27,662 nt of DNA from a virus. A program made the translations under genes and the position numbers. The notes under the pieces are model-generated. The model searched no databases. It was not told where the DNA came from and saw only the letters and a program-made list of their open reading frames with translations. Within the stretch, counting starts at the first letter, position 1; the number at the start of each line of letters is the position of its first letter. Positions 2,806-15,491 of the stretch are shown piece after piece. The DNA is taken from the IMG/VR virus record IMGVR_UViG_3300031669_004405, positions 1 through 27,662 of that record; one strand, written 5' to 3'.

Positions 2806-3650
2806 AAATAATATTTGTAGCAGTTTTTAGTTATAATTCAACCAATGTTTCTCAAGCCGATGGGTTTAGGAAGAATGGTTGTGAAGTAATTGAATTTAAT
2901 TACAGGGAGATTGCTGGAAAAGTCGGAAATCATGAACGAGATAAACAATTAGTTGCTCTTTGTGAAGCAGAAAAACCCGATGTTGTGGTTTTTAGTAAAT
3001 GTAATGAAATTTATTCATGGGTTGTTGACGAGTGTAATAAACATTCTAAGACCGTCTTGTGGTACATGGACCCACTTAATGATAATTTTAATTATGCTTT
3101 GAAAGAAAAAATTCAGAAATGTACGTATAGTTTTTGTGCGCTTCAAGAACCACTTAGAGAAGCGAAAAGAATTGGCGGTAATAAGGTTTTCTTTTTACAC
3201 GAAGGTTATGACCATACAAGTAATTATCCTGTTGATATTCCATATAAATATAATTATTCGTTTATTGGTGATGCAAGGGCAGGTAGAAAAAAATATGTAG
3301 ATGCTCTTAACATATCGTTAATTCAAAATGCGTATGGAAAAGAACATTCAATTGCGGTCTCTGAAACCAAAATAAATTTAAATTTTACTGAAGGCGGTAC
3401 ATCGGACAGAACATATAAGGTTCTCGCAAGTAAAGGATTTCTTTTGACCGAACCTTGGGACGGCATGGAAGACGATTTTAGTGTTGGAGAAGACCTTGAT
3501 ATTTTTACGACTGTCGAGGAATTGAGACAAAAGATTGATTATTATTTAAAAAACGATGATGAGAGATTAATAATTGCCGAACATGGTTATCAAACTGTAC
3601 GGAAATTTGACAGAATAAATTGGGCAAAAAAAATTATTAATAAATTATGA
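2802..3650 (+). CDS. CgeB-like glycosyltransferase (Glyco_trans_1_2 type)
   Basis: This 282-residue GT-B protein starts with MKIIFVAVFSYNSTN and has a DVVVFSKCNEIYSWVVDEC helix-strand unit near residue 65. The C-terminal part (about 180-280) is typical of the CgeB / Glyco_trans_1_2 group. It contains SETKINLNFTEGG, RTYKVLASKGFLLTEPWDGMEDDF, and then a helix pair ending AEHGYQTV near the C-terminus. In the family these residues form the nucleotide-sugar pocket; the glutamate/aspartate after the LL-T segment and the downstream acidic residues fit. The gene overlaps its upstream neighbour by 4 nt (ATGA) and its downstream neighbour by 4 nt, so it sits within a continuous operon. The sugar donor is unknown. 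Confidence 0.75.
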   Translation: MKIIFVAVFSYNSTNVSQADGFRKNGCEVIEFNYREIAGKVGNHERDKQLVALCEAEKPDVVVFSKCNEIYSWVVDECNKHSKTVLWYMDPLNDNFNYALKEKIQKCTYSFCALQEPLREAKRIGGNKVFFLHEGYDHTSNYPVDIPYKYNYSFIGDARAGRKKYVDALNISLIQNAYGKEHSIAVSETKINLNFTEGGTSDRTYKVLASKGFLLTEPWDGMEDDFSVGEDLDIFTTVEELRQKIDYYLKNDDERLIIAEHGYQTVRKFDRINWAKKIINKL

Positions 3651-4306
3651 AAGGAAGAAAATCAAAACATAATCCCTATAAGGTGGTTCAGATGTTTGAA
3701 GAGGAAGTGGCTGAATATACGGGAGCACCCTTTGCTGTTTCTGTTGATAGTTGCACAAATGCGTTGTTTTTGTGTTTGATATATAAAAAATATGAAATGC
3801 AATTACAAAAGAGAAGAGAAATAACAATCCCTTCCAAGACTTACCTATCTGTCCCAATGTCCATTATTCACGCTGGTTTTGAACCCGTTTTTGACTATTC
3901 AATGAATGACTGGTCAGGAATATACCAATTAAAACCATATAATATATATGATGCAGCGAAACGATTAACAAACGACATGTATATTGGTGGTAGTTTCATG
4001 TGTCTTTCTTTTCATATCAAAAAAAACCTTTCAATTGGGAAGGGTGGGATGATTTTATGTGATGATGCGAATGCTGTTAAATGGTTTAAATCGGCACGTT
4101 ATGAAGGAAGAAACGAAAAACTTTATCATGAGGATGATATTAAGATGCTGGGATGGAATATGTATATGACACCACAACAAGCAGCACATGGGTTGGCATT
4201 AATGCAAAATTATCCAATTGATGTTTCAGACTTGGGTGAAAACGATGGATATCGTGATTTAACCGAATTTACTGTATTTAAATATCATAAAAAAATAAAT
4301 GAATAA
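3647..4306 (+). CDS. Shortened DegT/DnrJ/EryC1/StrS-type aminotransferase
   Basis: The protein resembles PLP-dependent sugar aminotransferases that turn keto-sugar nucleotides into amino sugars. Features in order: a substrate loop and N-helix (VQMFEEEVAEYTGAPFAVSVDSCTNAL, 14-40); TIPSKTYLSVPMSIIHAGFEPVF (60-82), matching the family's P-x-TF-x-AT-x-x-AI pattern; YDAAKRL at 101-107 with D102 in place of the PLP-binding aspartate of DAAHA; and SFHIKKNLSIGKGGMI (121-136), where K126 fits the Schiff-base lysine of SFHxxK. At 219 residues it is far shorter than the usual ~370. The family's C-terminal small domain is nearly absent and replaced by ~30 residues. It may be a minimal active enzyme, a degenerate one, or half of a complex. 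It overlaps both neighbours. Confidence 0.75.
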   Translation: MKGRKSKHNPYKVVQMFEEEVAEYTGAPFAVSVDSCTNALFLCLIYKKYEMQLQKRREITIPSKTYLSVPMSIIHAGFEPVFDYSMNDWSGIYQLKPYNIYDAAKRLTNDMYIGGSFMCLSFHIKKNLSIGKGGMILCDDANAVKWFKSARYEGRNEKLYHEDDIKMLGWNMYMTPQQAAHGLALMQNYPIDVSDLGENDGYRDLTEFTVFKYHKKINE

Positions 4307-9623: not shown

Positions 9624-9667
9624 GTTAATGATAAATCAGGGAACGACATATAGAATTAATTTAGGAA
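9624..9667 (+). repeat. Copy 2 of 44-bp gene-start module
   Basis: Pairs with 1935-1978 (21 identical bases, then 18 of 23). It covers the start codon (9628) and first ~13 codons of the following gene. A short second frame from ATG 9615 reads VNDKSGNDI across it and stops at TAG, as the end of the GT2-like gene does at copy 1. Confidence 0.9.
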
Positions 9668-10383
9668 ACTCACAACCTCAAAAAAGTGTGGAGTTTGACC
9701 ACTTAATTGTCACGAGAGGAAATTTAAATTGGGTAGGTGGTGGATTTAGTCCTGCTCACAGCGAAAGAAGAATTCATTTAATGAATCGAACAGTAAGACC
9801 ATCAATCGAACAACAAACAAACAAAAATTTTAAATTCATCAGCCTCTGGAATGAAAAACCAACACATGCTGGAATTGATGGTGAAATAATGGAAGTCATG
9901 AAATCTAAATTTATTTTGAATAAAACATTTACAAAAACACCTGTAATTCATAATGCGGAAATTGTCGAAATTTGTAAAAAACACATTACAAAAAATTATG
10001 TGTTGGTGACTAAAGTGGATAATGATGATTGTTTGGGTATGAATTTCGTTGATGTACTTCAAAAAAACGTTGACATCATAAACTACCCTTATTATTATGA
10101 TATTCTTGCGTTTAGAACATATTATATGATGACAGGAGTAATGGAAATTTGTAAATTACCATATACCAGTATGTTTCTTTCGGTATTGGAAAAAAGTAGT
10201 GATTTTGTTTGTTACCCATATAATTATAAACACACGCAAATCAACAGTGTGCTCAGTGGAAAACATATACGGGAATTAGACGCATTATTTACACAACATT
10301 TAGATAATTCAGTAGCGGGTGCTTACGGTGCGCCAACAAGATTTAATTTAAAACATTATAGTCCTAAATTAACACAACAATGA
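9628..10383 (+). CDS. Putative rhamnosyltransferase-type glycosyltransferase
   Basis: This 251-residue protein resembles the bacterial Rhamno_transf group. HLIVTRGNLNWVGGG (25-39) is the opening strand. RTVRPSIEQQTNKNFKFISLWNEKPTH (54-80) matches the family's 'lPSI..Qt..nF.w....d' line. The metal-site block VLVTKVDNDDCLGMNF lies at 126-140, with D131-N-D-D134. YPYYYDILAFRTYY and YPYNYKHTQINSV are later core pieces. The first 12 residues (MINQGTTYRINL) duplicate the start of the GT9-like gene at 1939, although the two proteins then belong to different folds. That makes the peptide a transferable module, not a family trait. The sugar is not determinable from sequence. Confidence 0.65.
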   Translation: MINQGTTYRINLGNSQPQKSVEFDHLIVTRGNLNWVGGGFSPAHSERRIHLMNRTVRPSIEQQTNKNFKFISLWNEKPTHAGIDGEIMEVMKSKFILNKTFTKTPVIHNAEIVEICKKHITKNYVLVTKVDNDDCLGMNFVDVLQKNVDIINYPYYYDILAFRTYYMMTGVMEICKLPYTSMFLSVLEKSSDFVCYPYNYKHTQINSVLSGKHIRELDALFTQHLDNSVAGAYGAPTRFNLKHYSPKLTQQ

Positions 10384-11210
10384 AGAAAATAATCAATTTC
10401 ACACCAACGGGCATAATGCCAACAAAGGAGAATTCAAATGCACCATTACAACCCAATGAAATAATTGAGGATGTACATCAGGCATTTGAATTAGGTATAA
10501 CATTAACTCATATACATGCAAGAGATAGTAATGATTCAAACACATATAAAACCGAGGTATTTGGTAAAATATTTGATGGGATTAGAAAACATTGCCCCGA
10601 TTTGGTGATTTGTGCTTCTTTATCTGGAAGACTGTTCCCTGAGTTCGAGAAAAGGTCAGAAGTTTTGGAATTATATCCCGATATGGGTTCATTAACAATG
10701 TCGTCAATCAACTTCCCCAAATCGGCATCAATGAACGCACCAGATATGATGATAAATTTGATTGAAAAAATGGATAATTTTGGTATTACCCCAGAGATTG
10801 AATGTTTTGATTCTGGTATGTTGAATTATGCCAATTATTTATTGAGAAAGGGAATCATTAAAAGACCAGCATACATCAATGTGATTTTCGGTAACTTATT
10901 TAATGCACAGGCAGATGTTGCATCGATATCATCGGTGATTAATAATCTTCCCGATGACGTGTTTACCTGTTTTGGTGGTATTGGGAAAGAGCAATTGAAG
11001 ATGACTATCATGGGACTTCTATATGTTGATGGCATTAGAATTGGTTTAGAAGATAATTTTTATTACAACGATAAAGAAAAAACAACAAACATCGAATTAT
11101 TAAAGAGAATTTATAGGGTTATGGATGAACTTGGTCACACAGTATTTAATCACACAGAATTTAAAAATCTTGGATATGGGAACACAAAAATTGGCAATAT
11201 TGGGGGTTAG
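10380..11210 (+). CDS. DUF849 / BKACE-type beta-keto acid cleavage enzyme homologue
   Basis: A 276-residue TIM-barrel protein recognisable as a member of the BKACE (DUF849, Kce-like) family. Known members use Zn2+ to condense a beta-keto acid with acetyl-CoA and cleave it. Visible motifs: INFTPTGIMPTKENSNAPLQP (5-25); THIHARD at 43-49, whose H44 and H46 fit the two Zn-binding histidines; LTMSSINFP (105-113); PEIECFDSGML (138-148); FGNLFNAQAD (170-179); and GIRIGLEDNFYYN (218-230), with R220 and E224-D225 where the family has its arginine, third zinc ligand and catalytic aspartate. Length and residues suggest an active enzyme. Its substrate here is unknown; the context suggests a keto-sugar or acyl precursor. 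The start overlaps the previous stop (ATGA). Confidence 0.85.
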   Translation: MKKIINFTPTGIMPTKENSNAPLQPNEIIEDVHQAFELGITLTHIHARDSNDSNTYKTEVFGKIFDGIRKHCPDLVICASLSGRLFPEFEKRSEVLELYPDMGSLTMSSINFPKSASMNAPDMMINLIEKMDNFGITPEIECFDSGMLNYANYLLRKGIIKRPAYINVIFGNLFNAQADVASISSVINNLPDDVFTCFGGIGKEQLKMTIMGLLYVDGIRIGLEDNFYYNDKEKTTNIELLKRIYRVMDELGHTVFNHTEFKNLGYGNTKIGNIGG

Positions 11211-11847
11211 TGCTGGTGCGCTAACAATGCTTTTCGATGTTATAGAATCTTCTTTTGAGTTTCAGAAGCAATATGATTTGTTTCCAGAAATCTTCATACT
11301 CAACAATTTAGATATTGAGATAGAAAAACCATATATTAACAATGATGTTCTATACACAATGGTAACCGAAATACCAGAAAATTTTGATGGTAAATATCTT
11401 GTATGTCCCACAAGAGTGGTTAATAAAATAAAAATATTTAATGTATTCAATATCCCAATTGAACAATTTACAACCATATTCCATGCAATGAGTTCGGTGT
11501 CAAAAACGGCAACGATTGGACGTGGATGTGTTATAAATGCTGGTGTTGTGATTGCAGGTCAGAGTGTTATTGAAGACATGGTATTTATTAACAGAGGCTC
11601 AACAATTGGACATCACACAAGAATTGGGAGATTTACGACAATAAATCCAGCATGTAATATTGCTGGTGATGTTTTAATTGGAGAAAAATGTGAAATTGGT
11701 ATCGGTGCAACAATTATTGATGGAATTAATATTGGTAGTAATAATATTATTGGTGCGGGGTCGTTAGTTTTAAACGATATTCCAGATAATGTGGTGGCAT
11801 ATGGCAACCCGTGTAAAATTATTAGAGAAAATGGAACATTATTATAA
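11176..11847 (+). CDS. NeuD/PglD-like sugar O- or N-acyltransferase (left-handed beta-helix)
   Basis: From ATG 11176 the protein has 223 residues. It has a short Rossmann-like N-domain (KLAILGVSAGALTMLFDVI), followed from about residue 115 by hexapeptide repeats of the [IV]-G-x-x-x-x type: ATIGRGCVINAGVVIAGQSVIEDMVFINRGSTIGHHTRIG, and continuing to the C-terminus GNPCKIIREN. HH within TIGHHTRIG is the expected catalytic histidine position in NeuD/PglD-type trimeric acetyltransferases. GNP-x-K-I near the end is typical. An in-frame ATG at 11125 would overlap the previous gene by 86 nt; ATG 11176 (35-nt overlap) starts exactly at the first beta strand. Likely acylates an amino or hydroxyl group on the glycan, perhaps the product of the DegT-like enzyme. 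Confidence 0.8.
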   Translation: MGTQKLAILGVSAGALTMLFDVIESSFEFQKQYDLFPEIFILNNLDIEIEKPYINNDVLYTMVTEIPENFDGKYLVCPTRVVNKIKIFNVFNIPIEQFTTIFHAMSSVSKTATIGRGCVINAGVVIAGQSVIEDMVFINRGSTIGHHTRIGRFTTINPACNIAGDVLIGEKCEIGIGATIIDGINIGSNNIIGAGSLVLNDIPDNVVAYGNPCKIIRENGTLL

Positions 11848-12394
11848 TAATATACATGGTTGGTTTACTTTTCAGGATTTATATTCAGAAATGGTTGAGA
11901 AATTTCCTGATGGGTCACACTTTGTTGAGTTAGGGTCATGGCAAGGTAAAAGTGCTGTATTTATGGGGGTTGAGATAGTTAATTCGAATAAGGATATAAA
12001 ATTTGATTGCATCGATAACTGGTTGTTTGAGGGTGAAATCTATTCTCGAAATTCAGAATACATGAAAATGAAACACAATGCATTTAACATGTTCTTAAAA
12101 AACATTGAGCCATTATCAAAAGTAATTAATTACCATAAAATGGATTCGGTGGAAGCATCTAAATTGTATGATGACGAATCGTTAGAATTTGTATATGTCG
12201 ATGCATCACATTATTACGAAAATGTGAAAAATGACTTAACATATTGGTATCCAAAAGTAAAGAGTGGTGGTGTTATTGCTGGTCACGATTATCAATATGC
12301 TGGGGTTAAGTTAGCTGTGGACGAGTTTTTTACTGGAAAAATAATGAAAACCCCTGAAACAAGTTGGGTTTATTATAAAAATAATTTGATATGA
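11831..12394 (+). CDS. Class I SAM methyltransferase, Methyltransf_24-like
   Basis: From ATG 11831 the protein has 187 residues. Motif I is SHFVELGSWQGKSAVFMGVEI (about 29-49). The acidic strand is FDCIDNWLFEGE. The diagnostic block LEFVYVDASHYYENVKNDLTYWYPKVKSGGVIAGHDY is the canonical Methyltransf_24 second half (VDGxHxYxxVxxDL-x-x-W-x-x-L-K-x-GG). An upstream in-frame ATG (11789) would add 14 residues inside the acyltransferase gene; I prefer 11831, which overlaps it by 17 nt and begins just before the folded region. It is the last methyltransferase before the heptose genes and overlaps the kinase start (ATGA), so it may belong functionally to either group. Confidence 0.8.
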   Translation: MEHYYNNIHGWFTFQDLYSEMVEKFPDGSHFVELGSWQGKSAVFMGVEIVNSNKDIKFDCIDNWLFEGEIYSRNSEYMKMKHNAFNMFLKNIEPLSKVINYHKMDSVEASKLYDDESLEFVYVDASHYYENVKNDLTYWYPKVKSGGVIAGHDYQYAGVKLAVDEFFTGKIMKTPETSWVYYKNNLI

Positions 12395-13149
12395 AAAAAA
12401 CATTAGTAATAGGTGATGGGTGTGAAGACCTCTTTAGGTATGGTACTTGTGACAGGTTAAGTCCTGAAGCACCAGTACCAGTAATGAAGCCAACCAGAAC
12501 TACAGGTAATGGTGGTATGGCAATAAACGTATTTGAGAACCTCAAGGCATTGGGTGTCGATTGTGATATAATTACAAATGATATCAGACCAGTAAAAACC
12601 AGATATGTTGATGAAGTCAGTAATCAGATGTTGTTGCGTGTCGATGAAAAAGATGAAATCAGGGAAATTCTGGCAACTGACTTCGATGCGATTGATTTCA
12701 GTCAATATGGTGCTGTTGTTATTAGTGATTATGATAAAGGATTTCTATCAGATGTGGCGATTCGGTTAATTACTGAAAAACACGGTTTGGTTTTCATGGA
12801 CACTAAGAAAAAAATTGGTGATTGGGCATCGGGTATTGAATACATTAAAATAAATTATAAAGAATTTAAAGAAAATTATGATTGGTTATTAAATGAATTC
12901 GTTGAGGGTGATTTAGTTGTTACAATGGGAAGGAATGGTGCTGTTTTAAACATGACACAAACGTTTTCAATTGAAACTGAACATGAAGTACGTGACCTTA
13001 GTGGTGCTGGAGATACTTTTCTTGCAGGATTAGTTGCAGATTATGTAAAAAATAACGATATTTGCAAGGCAATACGTTTTGCGAATCGATGTTCAGCATG
13101 GGTTGTGTCGCAAAAAGGTGTTGTTGTGGTAAATCCAGAGAAGATATGA
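12391..13149 (+). CDS. hldA: PfkB-type heptose-7-phosphate kinase (HldE N-domain / HldA-like)
   Basis: The enzyme is predicted to phosphorylate D-glycero-beta-D-manno-heptose 7-phosphate at C1. It has 252 residues and matches the kinase domain of HldE (RfaE). GDGCEDLFRYGTCDRLSPEAPVPVM (8-32) contains the near-diagnostic R-x-SPEAPVPV. GNGGMAINVFENLKALG follows (39-55). QMLLRVDEKDE (79-89), VVISDYDKGFLS (109-120), MDTKK (136-140) and LVVTMGRNGAVL (175-186) follow in family order. DLSGAGDTFLAGLVADYV has the anion hole GAGD with catalytic D208. It is about 60 residues shorter than the usual HldE kinase domain and lacks a fused nucleotidyltransferase, which is a separate gene at 14098. The other PfkB sugar kinases are less likely given SPEAPVPV and the neighbours. 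Confidence 0.8.
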   Translation: MKKTLVIGDGCEDLFRYGTCDRLSPEAPVPVMKPTRTTGNGGMAINVFENLKALGVDCDIITNDIRPVKTRYVDEVSNQMLLRVDEKDEIREILATDFDAIDFSQYGAVVISDYDKGFLSDVAIRLITEKHGLVFMDTKKKIGDWASGIEYIKINYKEFKENYDWLLNEFVEGDLVVTMGRNGAVLNMTQTFSIETEHEVRDLSGAGDTFLAGLVADYVKNNDICKAIRFANRCSAWVVSQKGVVVVNPEKI

Positions 13150-13529
13150 GGATAATTGATTCCAAATTACAAACACATAATTGTATTGTTCCAAAGAAAT
13201 GGGGAGAAGAAATTATCATTCATAACGATGAAAATTATTGTGGAAAATTACTTGTTTTTAAGGAAGGTGCTAAATTCAGTATGCATTTCCATATGAAAAA
13301 AAAAGAAACTTTTTACGTACAGGAAGGAAAATTTCTTCTTAAGTACATCGACACAAGAGATGCAACACCAATGGAAGAGGAATTAACTGCTGGTATGATT
13401 ATCGAAGTTCAACAGGGTGACCCACATCAATTGTTGGCTTTAACAAAAGGCATTATATTTGAAGTTAGCACACAACACTTTGATGATGATAGTTATAGAA
13501 TAGGGAAAGGAGACAGTCAAAATGGATAA
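13146..13529 (+). CDS. Cupin-domain protein
   Basis: A 127-residue protein beginning at ATG 13146, which overlaps the kinase stop (ATGA); an upstream ATG at 13062 in the same frame lies inside the kinase gene and is unlikely. After KKWGEEIIIHNDENYCGKLLVF comes cupin motif 1, FSMHFHMKKKETFYVQEGKFLL, with the H-x-H-(x)-E metal ligands. Motif 2 is a shorter GDPHQLLALTKGIIFEVS with the histidine. Single-domain cupins in glycan loci include sugar-phosphate isomerases, epimerases and the C-domain of mannose-1-phosphate guanylyltransferases, and the KxWGxE opening is shared with that group. Its place inside the heptose operon suggests a sugar-phosphate substrate. It might stand in for a missing step such as the isomerase, but I have no motif evidence for that. 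Confidence 0.75.
   Translation: MRIIDSKLQTHNCIVPKKWGEEIIIHNDENYCGKLLVFKEGAKFSMHFHMKKKETFYVQEGKFLLKYIDTRDATPMEEELTAGMIIEVQQGDPHQLLALTKGIIFEVSTQHFDDDSYRIGKGDSQNG
13508..13512 (+). promoter_or_regulatory. Shine-Dalgarno sequence for the gene at 13522
   Basis: AGGAG stands 9 nt before ATG 13522, inside the end of the cupin gene. Clear purine-rich ribosome sites are rare elsewhere in this window, so this one stands out. Confidence 0.6.
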
Positions 13530-13809
13530 AAATTACACAAAACCACACGACAAGGATTACAAAGACACGCCAGAAGATTACCTATGGCTTGTAATGGCAT
13601 TTGGAAGGGCATTAAGTGCAATGCTTGGTGATGGGCAAGGTATCTTGATTGATATGAAAGCCGATGCATTAAAAATAAGACCAGAAGCAAAGCGTGTTGT
13701 GGTTTTTAATGATGGTAAAATGATTAGGGTTGTTGATGCCAGTGAACGCACTGACCTCAAAGACGGTGATAGGATTCAGATGATTGATAAAAACTTTATT
13801 TCGAACTGA
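13522..13809 (+). CDS. Small protein of unknown function in the heptose operon
   Basis: A 95-residue soluble protein that I do not recognise. It has a hydrophilic N-terminus rich in D and K (1-18), a helix YLWLVMAFGRALSAMLGDGQG (20-40), and then strand-rich residues (LIDMKADALKIRPEAKRVVVFNDGKMIRVVDA) ending with LKDGDRIQMIDKNF. No catalytic motif is visible. A good Shine-Dalgarno (AGGAG, 9 nt upstream) marks the start. It overlaps the cupin gene by 8 nt and the HAD gene by a single base (TGATG). The tight coupling on both sides implies a role with the heptose enzymes or simple co-expression. Confidence 0.7.
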   Translation: MDKNYTKPHDKDYKDTPEDYLWLVMAFGRALSAMLGDGQGILIDMKADALKIRPEAKRVVVFNDGKMIRVVDASERTDLKDGDRIQMIDKNFISN

Positions 13810-14096
13810 TGTTGATTTACTGTGATGTTGACGGTACAATATGTACAACCGAGGGTGGTTACGACAATGCGAAACCAATTCCAGAGAATATAGCCAAAAT
13901 CAATAAACTGTTTGACGAAGGTAATATCATAGTTTACTGGACTGCCAGAGGCGGTAATACTGGCAAGGATTGGACGGAACTCACTGGACAACAACTTGTT
14001 GCGTGGGGTTGCCGATTTCACGATGTTATTATGAGACAGAAACCCGCATTTGATTTATTGATTGATGACAAGAGTAAACGAATAGAAGAAATTTAA
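13809..14096 (+). CDS. Small HAD-superfamily phosphatase, capsule-type (EcbF/BcbF-like)
   Basis: This 95-residue protein is a minimal HAD phosphatase. Motif I is IYCDVDGTICTT with nucleophile D6 and acid D8, motif II is IVYWTARGG (T/A-R) and the C-terminal motif is LLIDDKSKR with the Mg-binding acidic pair. Its pattern DGTICTTEGGYDNAKPIPENIAKINKLFDEG is close to the small capsule-biosynthesis phosphatases of the EcbF-BcbF group. Between a heptose kinase and a heptose-1-phosphate nucleotidyltransferase, the expected missing reaction is removal of the 7-phosphate (GmhB), which is also HAD chemistry. GmhB is about 180 residues and has a zinc loop that is absent here, so this would be a substitute, not a GmhB orthologue. 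Function inferred. Confidence 0.75.
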   Translation: MLIYCDVDGTICTTEGGYDNAKPIPENIAKINKLFDEGNIIVYWTARGGNTGKDWTELTGQQLVAWGCRFHDVIMRQKPAFDLLIDDKSKRIEEI

Positions 14097-14097
14097 T

Positions 14098-14529
14098 ATG
14101 AATATCTGGGTAAACGGATGCTTTGACATCTTACATACAGGACATCTTGACTTATTTTGGTACGCCAAATTATATGGTGTTGAGGGTCTTGGGTATCACG
14201 AAGCCATGAAGGTGAATAAACTTTATGTTGGTATTGATACCGATGAAAGGGTTAAGATGCTGAAAGGTGACAGTAGACCGATAAACGATGCCCATGATAG
14301 GGCGAAAATGCTCAGTAATTTAAAAATGATTGACAGCGTTGTTATATTTCATGATGACGATGAAATGCGATATTTTATAACATCTTTTAATACTGATTAT
14401 TTAATGGTGGGTGACCATTACAGGGATAAAGTTGTAATTGGTGCTGAGTGTGCAAAGTCTGGGGTTATTTACTATCCTACAGATGAGAGGTCAAGTACAG
14501 GCATTATTGAAAAAATAAAGAAACTATGA
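14098..14529 (+). CDS. hldC: Heptose-1-phosphate nucleotidyltransferase (HldE C-domain / HldC-like)
   Basis: A 143-residue nucleotidyltransferase of the cytidylyltransferase-like fold. WVNGCFDILHTGHLDLFWYAK has the HxGH motif at 13-16, binding the ATP phosphates. LYVGIDTDERVKMLKGDSRPINDAHDRAKMLSNLKMIDSVVIF matches the GlcE-type block of HldE. DYLMVGDHYRDKVVIGAE and RSSTGIIEKIKKL close it, with the S-T-G-I motif of the family. It should join AMP from ATP to heptose 1-phosphate to give ADP-heptose. Other members (glycerol-3-phosphate or phosphoethanolamine cytidylyltransferases) share the fold, but the kinase, HAD and epimerase neighbours favour heptose. It begins 1 nt after the HAD stop and overlaps the epimerase start (ATGA). 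Confidence 0.85.
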   Translation: MNIWVNGCFDILHTGHLDLFWYAKLYGVEGLGYHEAMKVNKLYVGIDTDERVKMLKGDSRPINDAHDRAKMLSNLKMIDSVVIFHDDDEMRYFITSFNTDYLMVGDHYRDKVVIGAECAKSGVIYYPTDERSSTGIIEKIKKL

Positions 14530-15491
14530 TTGTAGTTACAGGCGGTGCAGGTTTTATTGGTCAGAATTTAGTTAATAAATTAATTGAATTGGGACATGAA
14601 AATATTGTTGTTATCGATAATAATATTAATAGGTCGATTGAGAAGTATTTTGGTGTTAAATATATGACCGTTGAAGATTCGTACCTCTGGCTTGAGTTCA
14701 ACCGTTATGACATTGATGTTGTTTATCATCTGGGCGCACGTACTGATACTATGGAGAAGGACGAGAAGATTTTCGAACGTCTTAATCTGAATTACAGTAA
14801 GTTGATTTGGAATTTCTGTAGTGATTACGATATTTCTTTGATTTATGCCAGCAGTGCTGCTACTTATGGTGATGGAGAAGACGGGTTTGATGACGAAGAA
14901 CCCATTCTTAATTTAAAACCGTTAAATCCCTATGGTGAATACAAACACTATTTTGACATGTACGCCCTTGGTAACTCAATTGGTGATAAGAAGTATCAAC
15001 CATCGTTCTGGACAGGATTGAAGTTCTTCAATGTTTATGGAAACCATGAAGAACATAAAGGTGCAATGGCATCGGTTATCTGGCATTTCTACCATCAAAT
15101 AAAAGAAACTGGTGCTGTGAAACTATTTAAATCACATGTTGATTTTTGTGAAGACGGTGAACAAAAACGTGATTTTATTCACGTTTCTGATATCATAAAT
15201 GTGATGATTTTACTTTATGACATCAGACATATTGTGCCTTCAGACATCTATAATCTGGGTACAGGACAAGCCAGAACATACAACGATTTGGCAAAAGCAA
15301 TTTTTAAAAGTTTAGGAAAACAAGAGAATATATCATATATTGACACCCCTTTGGAAATCAGGGATAGTTACCAATACTACACCAGAGCTAAAATGGATAA
15401 ACTACTTGAAACTATTTCGGGGTACAATTTTCTTACGTTGGAAGAAGGTATTGATTTGTATATAAAACTATTAGAATATGAAAATTGCTAA
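14526..15491 (+). CDS. hldD: ADP-L-glycero-D-manno-heptose 6-epimerase-like protein
   Basis: A 321-residue extended short-chain dehydrogenase/reductase. NAD(P) motif TGGAGFIG is at 5-12. YHLGARTDTMEKDEK is the HldD-specific G-A-x-T-D-T segment. SSAATYGDGEDGF comes at 109-121 and the catalytic Y136-x3-K140 pair at NPYGEYK. FFNVYGNHEEHKGAMASVIWHFYHQ and GEQKRDFIHVSDIINV follow, and NLGTGQARTYNDLAKAIF closes. These features, and the length (HldD is ~310), identify it well. The predicted reaction is 6-epimerisation of ADP-D-glycero-D-manno-heptose to the L-form, completing the donor for heptosyltransferases. A 14-nt overlap with the following unknown gene suggests that gene is cotranscribed. Confidence 0.9.
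   Translation: MIVVTGGAGFIGQNLVNKLIELGHENIVVIDNNINRSIEKYFGVKYMTVEDSYLWLEFNRYDIDVVYHLGARTDTMEKDEKIFERLNLNYSKLIWNFCSDYDISLIYASSAATYGDGEDGFDDEEPILNLKPLNPYGEYKHYFDMYALGNSIGDKKYQPSFWTGLKFFNVYGNHEEHKGAMASVIWHFYHQIKETGAVKLFKSHVDFCEDGEQKRDFIHVSDIINVMILLYDIRHIVPSDIYNLGTGQARTYNDLAKAIFKSLGKQENISYIDTPLEIRDSYQYYTRAKMDKLLETISGYNFLTLEEGIDLYIKLLEYENC

Follow-up and report, generated by a model that had tools for sequence, protein, structure and literature searches.

A BKACE (DUF849) gene paired with a NeuD-like acyltransferase gene in a phage glycan cluster: a putative acyl-CoA source for the acylation of surface sugars

The window, i.e. the whole stretch of DNA that was analysed, is an IMG/VR virus record of 27,662 bases with a phage glycan cluster of 16 kb. 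The cluster contains glycosyltransferases, methyltransferases, a DegT-type aminotransferase and an ADP-heptose-like gene set. It is adjoined by genes whose products resemble the UvsX recombinase and the DnaB helicase and by an exonuclease gene, and belongs to a tailed phage. The initial annotation had placed a BKACE enzyme between a glycosyltransferase and a NeuD-like acyltransferase, and this order was confirmed with a PF11316 gene upstream and a NeuD/PglD-like gene downstream. The features concerned are as follows.

3647 to 4306, plus strand: short DegT/DnrJ/EryC1/StrS-type sugar aminotransferase of 219 aa (family match; PLP Lys126 and Asp102 invariant)
9628 to 10383, plus strand: glycosyltransferase, PF11316 (putative rhamnosyl transferase), with a 4-nt overlap with the BKACE start
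10380 to 11210, plus strand: BKACE (DUF849/PF05853), glycan-associated subfamily, 276 aa (Pfam, PDB sequence search, alignments, AlphaFold2)
11176 to 11847, plus strand: NeuD/PglD-like left-handed beta-helix acyltransferase (TIGR03570, PF00132, perosamine N-acetyltransferase 4ea7)
11789 to 12394, plus strand: SAM-dependent methyltransferase (Methyltransf_24/TylF-like; profile match), 3' of the NeuD-like gene in the glycan cluster

The window also carries an ADP-heptose-like route (12391-15491) with a split HldE, namely a kinase with a shortened N-terminal half (12391-13149) and a nucleotidyltransferase (14098-14529), as well as an SDR at 14526-15491, a WbuC-like cupin at 13131 and a small HAD-like protein at 13809. 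A 53-nt direct repeat with 83% identity is located at 1935-1987 and 9624-9676 and provides two unrelated glycan genes with a common N-terminal leader, MINQGT(S/T)YR. It was absent from every other locus compared and is possibly a cassette-insertion or recombination scar.

The protein encoded at 10380-11210 matched PF05853 with 213.9 bits (E 3.7e-63, residues 3-262), which is above the gathering cut-off of 24.8 bits across the full domain. Among the BKACE crystal structures matched by sequence were 3no5 (E 7e-35) and Kce (2y7d, E 4e-30), and 3fa5 was also close. The cut-offs of two equivalogs were missed, namely that of Kce in lysine fermentation (NF052387, 176.6 bits vs 382) and that of 3-oxoadipate:acetyl-CoA acetyltransferase (NF053568, 169.7 bits vs 350). 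No BKACE match was found in PHROGs and the INPHARED phage records, and a structure search of BFVD retrieved generic TIM barrels only. The zinc histidines of the HIHARD motif (H44 and H46) and the RxGLED block (here RIGLED, R220 and E224/D225) had initially been described as preserved. They are indeed, as is E141: across 43 viral and 80 bacterial sequences, no substitution occurs in the zinc ligands H44, H46 and E224, in the R220/D225 dyad or in E141. At position 48, the first Arg of HIHARD, 40 of the 43 viral sequences have Arg. Y228 aligns with Tyr251 of BsfD, which guides the pantetheine (PMC12871164); 41 of the 43 viral copies have Tyr there, and most bacterial members have either Tyr or Trp.

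The AlphaFold2 model of the enzyme has a mean pLDDT of 86.6 and a pTM of 0.89, with a loop of low confidence (residues 110-117) that is probably close to the active site. With Z 32.7-35.0 and rmsd 2.0-2.3 Å over 266-274 residues, it could be superposed on the structures of 13 BKACE entries. The related ObcA, Obc1 and cis-epoxysuccinate hydrolase followed with Z 28-29 and unrelated TIM barrels from Z 16.8 down. The median dN/dS of the viral copies was 0.17 and the maximum 0.30 (344 non-independent pairs), and the copies are thus under purifying selection. Given the zinc and dyad residues, the BKACE fold of the model, the purifying selection and Y228, zinc and CoA binding are very probably retained. 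The proposal of an active zinc-dependent enzyme hence agrees with sequence, predicted fold and selection, the activity itself being a prediction.

The downstream protein matched TIGR03570 (NeuD/PglD/VioB) with 137.7 bits from residue 99 onwards and has a divergent N-terminal domain. It is called NeuD-like here because the subfamily cut-off of 160.8 bits was not reached. It contains hexapeptide repeats (PF00132), and perosamine N-acetyltransferase (4ea7) was the best profile match with E 2e-31. A catalytic-type His163, numbered from the listed ORF start at 11125, is invariant in 42 NeuD-like sequences. The ATG at 11176 is the likely start, since it fits start and overlap in the relatives, and results in a 35-nt overlap with the BKACE gene.

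A search of IMG/VR with the BKACE yielded 56 further loci (57-70% identity), and a NeuD-like gene was present in every one of them except L035, which is cut by the contig edge. With the window included, the NeuD start lies at most 200 nt from the BKACE stop in 52 pairs; 50 of these overlap, mostly by 29-38 nt, and translation of the two genes is probably coupled through this overlap. A WbqC-like or related gene is inserted between BKACE and NeuD in three viral loci and a short DegT gene in one. In the reverse search with a NeuD profile, 66 loci matched this NeuD type strongly, and 63 of them contain a BKACE, although both searches have several contigs in common and are therefore partly dependent. 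Of the three loci without a BKACE, two start at the edge of their contig, which leaves L275 as the one genuine exception. The BKACE-NeuD pair is near-obligate in viruses.

In addition, 80 bacterial or archaeal BKACE loci were collected, mainly from Bacteroidota. They were chosen through motifs of the viral alignment, and the set is therefore biased toward the glycan subtype. A less biased, though small, test of the pairing used 395 Bacteroidota genomes that were drawn evenly around one Pseudarcicella genome. A full-length BKACE was encoded in 15 of these genomes, six being of the glycan type and nine long lysine-type (bifunctional) fusions. NeuD was at most two genes away in all six glycan-type cases and in none of the nine lysine-type ones (Fisher p about 2e-4, one of the six being the Pseudarcicella genome on which the draw was centred). 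The pair is thus near-obligate in this sample as well, and a lack of co-occurrence with the acyltransferase outside this phage, one of the two outcomes named initially as refuting the idea, is decisively contradicted.

In the tree, all viral copies group with five Bacteroidota genes (support 100), namely from Pseudarcicella, Arcicella, Emticicia, a Chitinophaga MAG and a Prolixibacteraceae MAG. These five show the BKACE-NeuD order of the viruses with a similar overlap, and three of them also have the short DegT. The viral BKACEs form one side of a branch with support 85, from which we infer, as the simplest reading of the tree, that viruses acquired the gene once or a few times from donors resembling Bacteroidota. 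In seven bacterial carrier genomes, the glycan-type BKACE is the sole BKACE and was therefore not copied from a resident catabolic BKACE gene. Its bacterial neighbours are WbqC, full-length DegT, GT2, flippases and NDP-sugar (SDR) dehydratases. WbqC was considered as an obligatory member of the module and rejected, being present in a minority of the loci.

The partner is not always NeuD. The Flavobacteriaceae form one clade (SH-aLRT 99) with a GNAT in its place, and a GNAT is located directly 3' of the BKACE in 36 of the 80 bacterial loci. The downstream protein of the Flavobacteriaceae has approx. 214 aa, and PF00583 was matched at E≤1 by 19 of 21 members, the best of them with 2e-7, although several of the matches are weak when taken singly. 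In a Woesearchaeota locus, an Antibiotic_NAT gene (PF02522) ends immediately 5' of the BKACE. NeuD, GNAT and Antibiotic_NAT have unrelated folds and one function. The constant partner of the BKACE is therefore acyl-CoA-dependent acylation rather than one protein fold, which points to acyl-CoA as the link and is hard to explain otherwise.

In a Chloroflexota locus (L138, 4685-10744), NeuD, BKACE, a fusion of a PylC-like N-terminal domain with an SDR, DegT and a PglF-like dehydratase are encoded in a row, which makes it a compact candidate pathway for the BKACE-acyltransferase chemistry. In Winogradskyella and relatives (L073-L092), BKACE-GNAT is followed by one to three ATPgrasp_ST genes (PF14397) and a CapK/PaaK-like gene, an order that suggests that additional acyl groups or peptides are attached to a polysaccharide. 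Rhizobium and Roseobacter-type bacteria have many plasmid-borne relatives of the BKACE. On plasmid pRSE21 of Salmonella enterica serovar Karamoja (L058, 11474-17841), a BKACE with 47% identity to that of the window is accompanied by gamma-glutamyltransferase, RibD, RibA, a methyltransferase, riboflavin synthase and transporters, a set reminiscent of natural product clusters of the flavin or pteridine type.

We consider it fairly probable that the BKACE makes a non-acetyl acyl-CoA from a β-keto acid and acetyl-CoA and that its partner acylates a sugar, probably an amino sugar. It would be the acyl-donor enzyme of a sugar-acylation module of two to four genes. With its zinc, the enzyme would bind the β-keto acid, the R220/D225 dyad would form the enolate, and the enolate would be condensed with acetyl-CoA to an adduct that is split into acetoacetate and the new acyl-CoA (R-CO-CoA). 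The NeuD-like enzyme, or else the GNAT or NAT, would then use the acyl group to N-acylate a nucleotide sugar. The amino group needed for this would, in most loci, have been installed by the linked DegT-type aminotransferase, and the glycosyltransferases of the cluster would join the acylated sugar to a glycan of the phage or host surface. We infer from these data in which direction the reaction runs, that acyl transfer is the common step, that an amino sugar is N-acylated and where the glycan is attached. The suggestion that the enzyme may generate an acyl donor is hence the best-supported reading, with the reservation that Tyr145 of Kce is Phe here and that the donor role is predicted. Plain acetyl-CoA is the usual donor of NeuD enzymes, and a BKACE is unnecessary for it, which speaks against this reading.

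In the pocket comparison with Kce, the members of the subfamily have S80, S/T82-G83-R84 (with L81 in nearly all members), S104-L105-T106-(M/L)107-S108-S109, G146-M147, N167 and N172 in common. At the positions taken to line the pocket of Kce, compared by alignment, Q13 (in most viral members), S/T82, R84, T106, N167 and N172 stand opposite E14, G84, A86, N108, Q170 and V175 of Kce. The site of Kce's Glu14, which we take to bind the substrate amine, is Gln in 42 of the 43 viral sequences, Met in the window and mostly Ile or Val in bacteria. The loss of this Glu speaks against an amino-hexanoate (lysine-type) substrate, and the polar pocket favours a substrate that is polar but neutral, for instance a β-keto acid with a hydroxyl group. 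Position 13 differs between viral and most bacterial members, which suggests that the acyl group varies within the subfamily. For BKACE15, 5-hydroxy-β-ketohexanoate was confirmed as substrate, and formation of formyl-CoA from malonate semialdehyde by BKACE was also described (PMC11961710). By analogy, cleavage of 5-hydroxy-3-ketohexanoate would yield 3-hydroxybutyryl-CoA. The 3-hydroxybutyryl residue is a known N-acyl group on surface sugars; no result obtained here singles it out.

The supply of substrates was considered as well. A conserved source of the β-keto acid was not found, which weighs against the acyl-donor reading. Among 14 large records of phages that carry the cassette, which may be fragments, none encodes an AMP-forming acyl-CoA ligase (PF00501), so that no phage-encoded source of acyl-CoA of this type is apparent besides the BKACE. 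In seven of these 14 possibly fragmentary records, an SDR of the dehydratase/epimerase type (PF01370) was absent, and the sugar substrate is therefore probably derived from the host there. In phages, the β-keto acid would thus be supplied by the host, and often the sugar substrate as well.

The short DegT has approx. 200-220 aa in all members; compared with the full-length enzyme (approx. 370 aa), its C-terminal part is missing and some 50 residues are deleted in the interior. It is of fold type I with K126 and D102 kept throughout, and its model resembled a sugar transaminase with Z 18.6 and rmsd 3.0 over 203 residues. It follows directly after NeuD in many other viruses and lies 6 kb from the BKACE in the window. 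The short DegT is a very frequent gene in viral contigs and occurs without a BKACE in 78 of 80 viral loci, and 74 of the 80 also lack this NeuD type. It was rejected as obligatory member with respect to these 74 copies and is, judging from gene neighbourhoods, a probable but not obligatory partner of the BKACE module. The amino-sugar part of the proposal is consequently weaker than the acylation part.

A different chemistry has to be weighed with regard to F143, which stands in place of Tyr145 of Kce in every one of the 43 viral and 80 bacterial sequences. Tyr145 was proposed as catalytic and stated to be present in all BKACEs, and BsfD of the flavophos pathway, which has Phe at that site, carries out condensation without cleavage (PMC12871164). 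The BKACE could likewise only C-acetylate a β-keto acid, or a keto-uronic sugar as a β-keto acid in its own right, by means of acetyl-CoA with subsequent decarboxylation and deliver a branched sugar or diketone-type product to NeuD/DegT. The invariant Phe143, the precedent of the same Tyr-to-Phe change in BsfD and the dehydratases and DegT in glycan context fit such a condensing enzyme. However, Phe is also found at this position in the structures 3no5, 3fa5, 3chv and 3c6c; Tyr is thus not defining for the BKACE family and Phe no marker of BsfD chemistry. Phe143 as proof of such chemistry was therefore rejected. Moreover, the constant partnering with three unrelated acyltransferase folds would be left unexplained, and the window sequence is nearer to 3no5 and Kce than to BsfD (9zsc). 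We regard a condensing enzyme as rather unlikely, and the initial idea of an unusual sugar, with the BKACE acting directly on the sugar, is less supported than that of an acyl donor.

It is very improbable that the BKACE supplies acetoacetate, clears a toxic β-keto acid or is a non-catalytic structural or regulatory partner of the acyltransferase. The gene overlap suggests linked translation, but the catalytic residues are all invariant at a dN/dS of about 0.17, and the exchange of NeuD for GNAT speaks against a specific physical complex. Less probable still is an auxiliary metabolic gene for lysine, carnitine or aromatic catabolism of the host during infection with incidental neighbours: although characterised BKACE members are mostly catabolic and plasmid relatives are numerous, the NeuD pairing is near-obligate here and lacking in all true lysine-type BKACEs of the draw, Glu14 of Kce is replaced, no lysine, carnitine or aromatic catabolic gene was recognised beside the BKACE, and the bacterial BKACEs closest to it have no second BKACE beside them in their genomes and lie within polysaccharide loci.

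Beyond the preferred acyl-donor function, we give an even chance to the wider proposal that phages and Bacteroidota share a mobile module in which a retro-Claisen BKACE makes a tailor-made acyl-CoA for the N-acylation of surface sugars, without need of a ligase or ACP, and that this is the first biosynthetic glycan role in a mainly catabolic family. No earlier report of a BKACE-acyltransferase pairing was found in the open-licence literature searched. To our knowledge, the origin of non-acetyl acyl groups on surface amino sugars is known in few cases only. If true, the proposal would add a new donor-making chemistry for such groups, the gene pair would serve as a sequence marker for unusual acyl-sugars, and phages would be seen to customise glycans instead of merely taking over genes of their hosts. 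A BKACE branch that databases label as 'lysine fermentation' also gains a testable function.

In comparison with known systems, Kce shares the TIM barrel, the zinc site of His-X-His and Glu and the Arg/Asp dyad with the BKACE of the window (Z 33.7-34.0, 25% identity). The subfamily differs from it in Phe for Tyr145, in Gln for Glu14 in most viral members (Met in the window), in the motifs SLSGR and SLTMSS as well as N167 and N172, and in its gene context, which is glycan instead of lysine. The DUF849 structures 3no5, 3fa5 and 3chv are the closest solved relatives (27-30% identity, Z ∼35) and have Phe at the Tyr145 site as well, but the signatures that mark the glycan subfamily (SLTMSS, N167/N172 and SGM) are absent from them. 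BsfD (9zsc) likewise has Phe at the catalytic Tyr and is a biosynthetic rather than catabolic DUF849 enzyme; it matched the window BKACE with E 1.6e-19 only, has an extra loop of 20 residues that contains Arg91 for the phosphonate, and no acyltransferase partner was described for it (PMC12871164). As in the present clusters, a DegT-type aminotransferase is combined with a NeuD-family N-acyltransferase in the glycan clusters of PglE-PglD, of GDP-perosamine synthase with its N-acetyltransferase and of VioA-VioB. These modules for the N-acylation of bacillosamine, perosamine and viosamine use, as far as we know, acetyl-CoA as donor and have no BKACE, and the aminotransferase found here differs from theirs in its shortened form.
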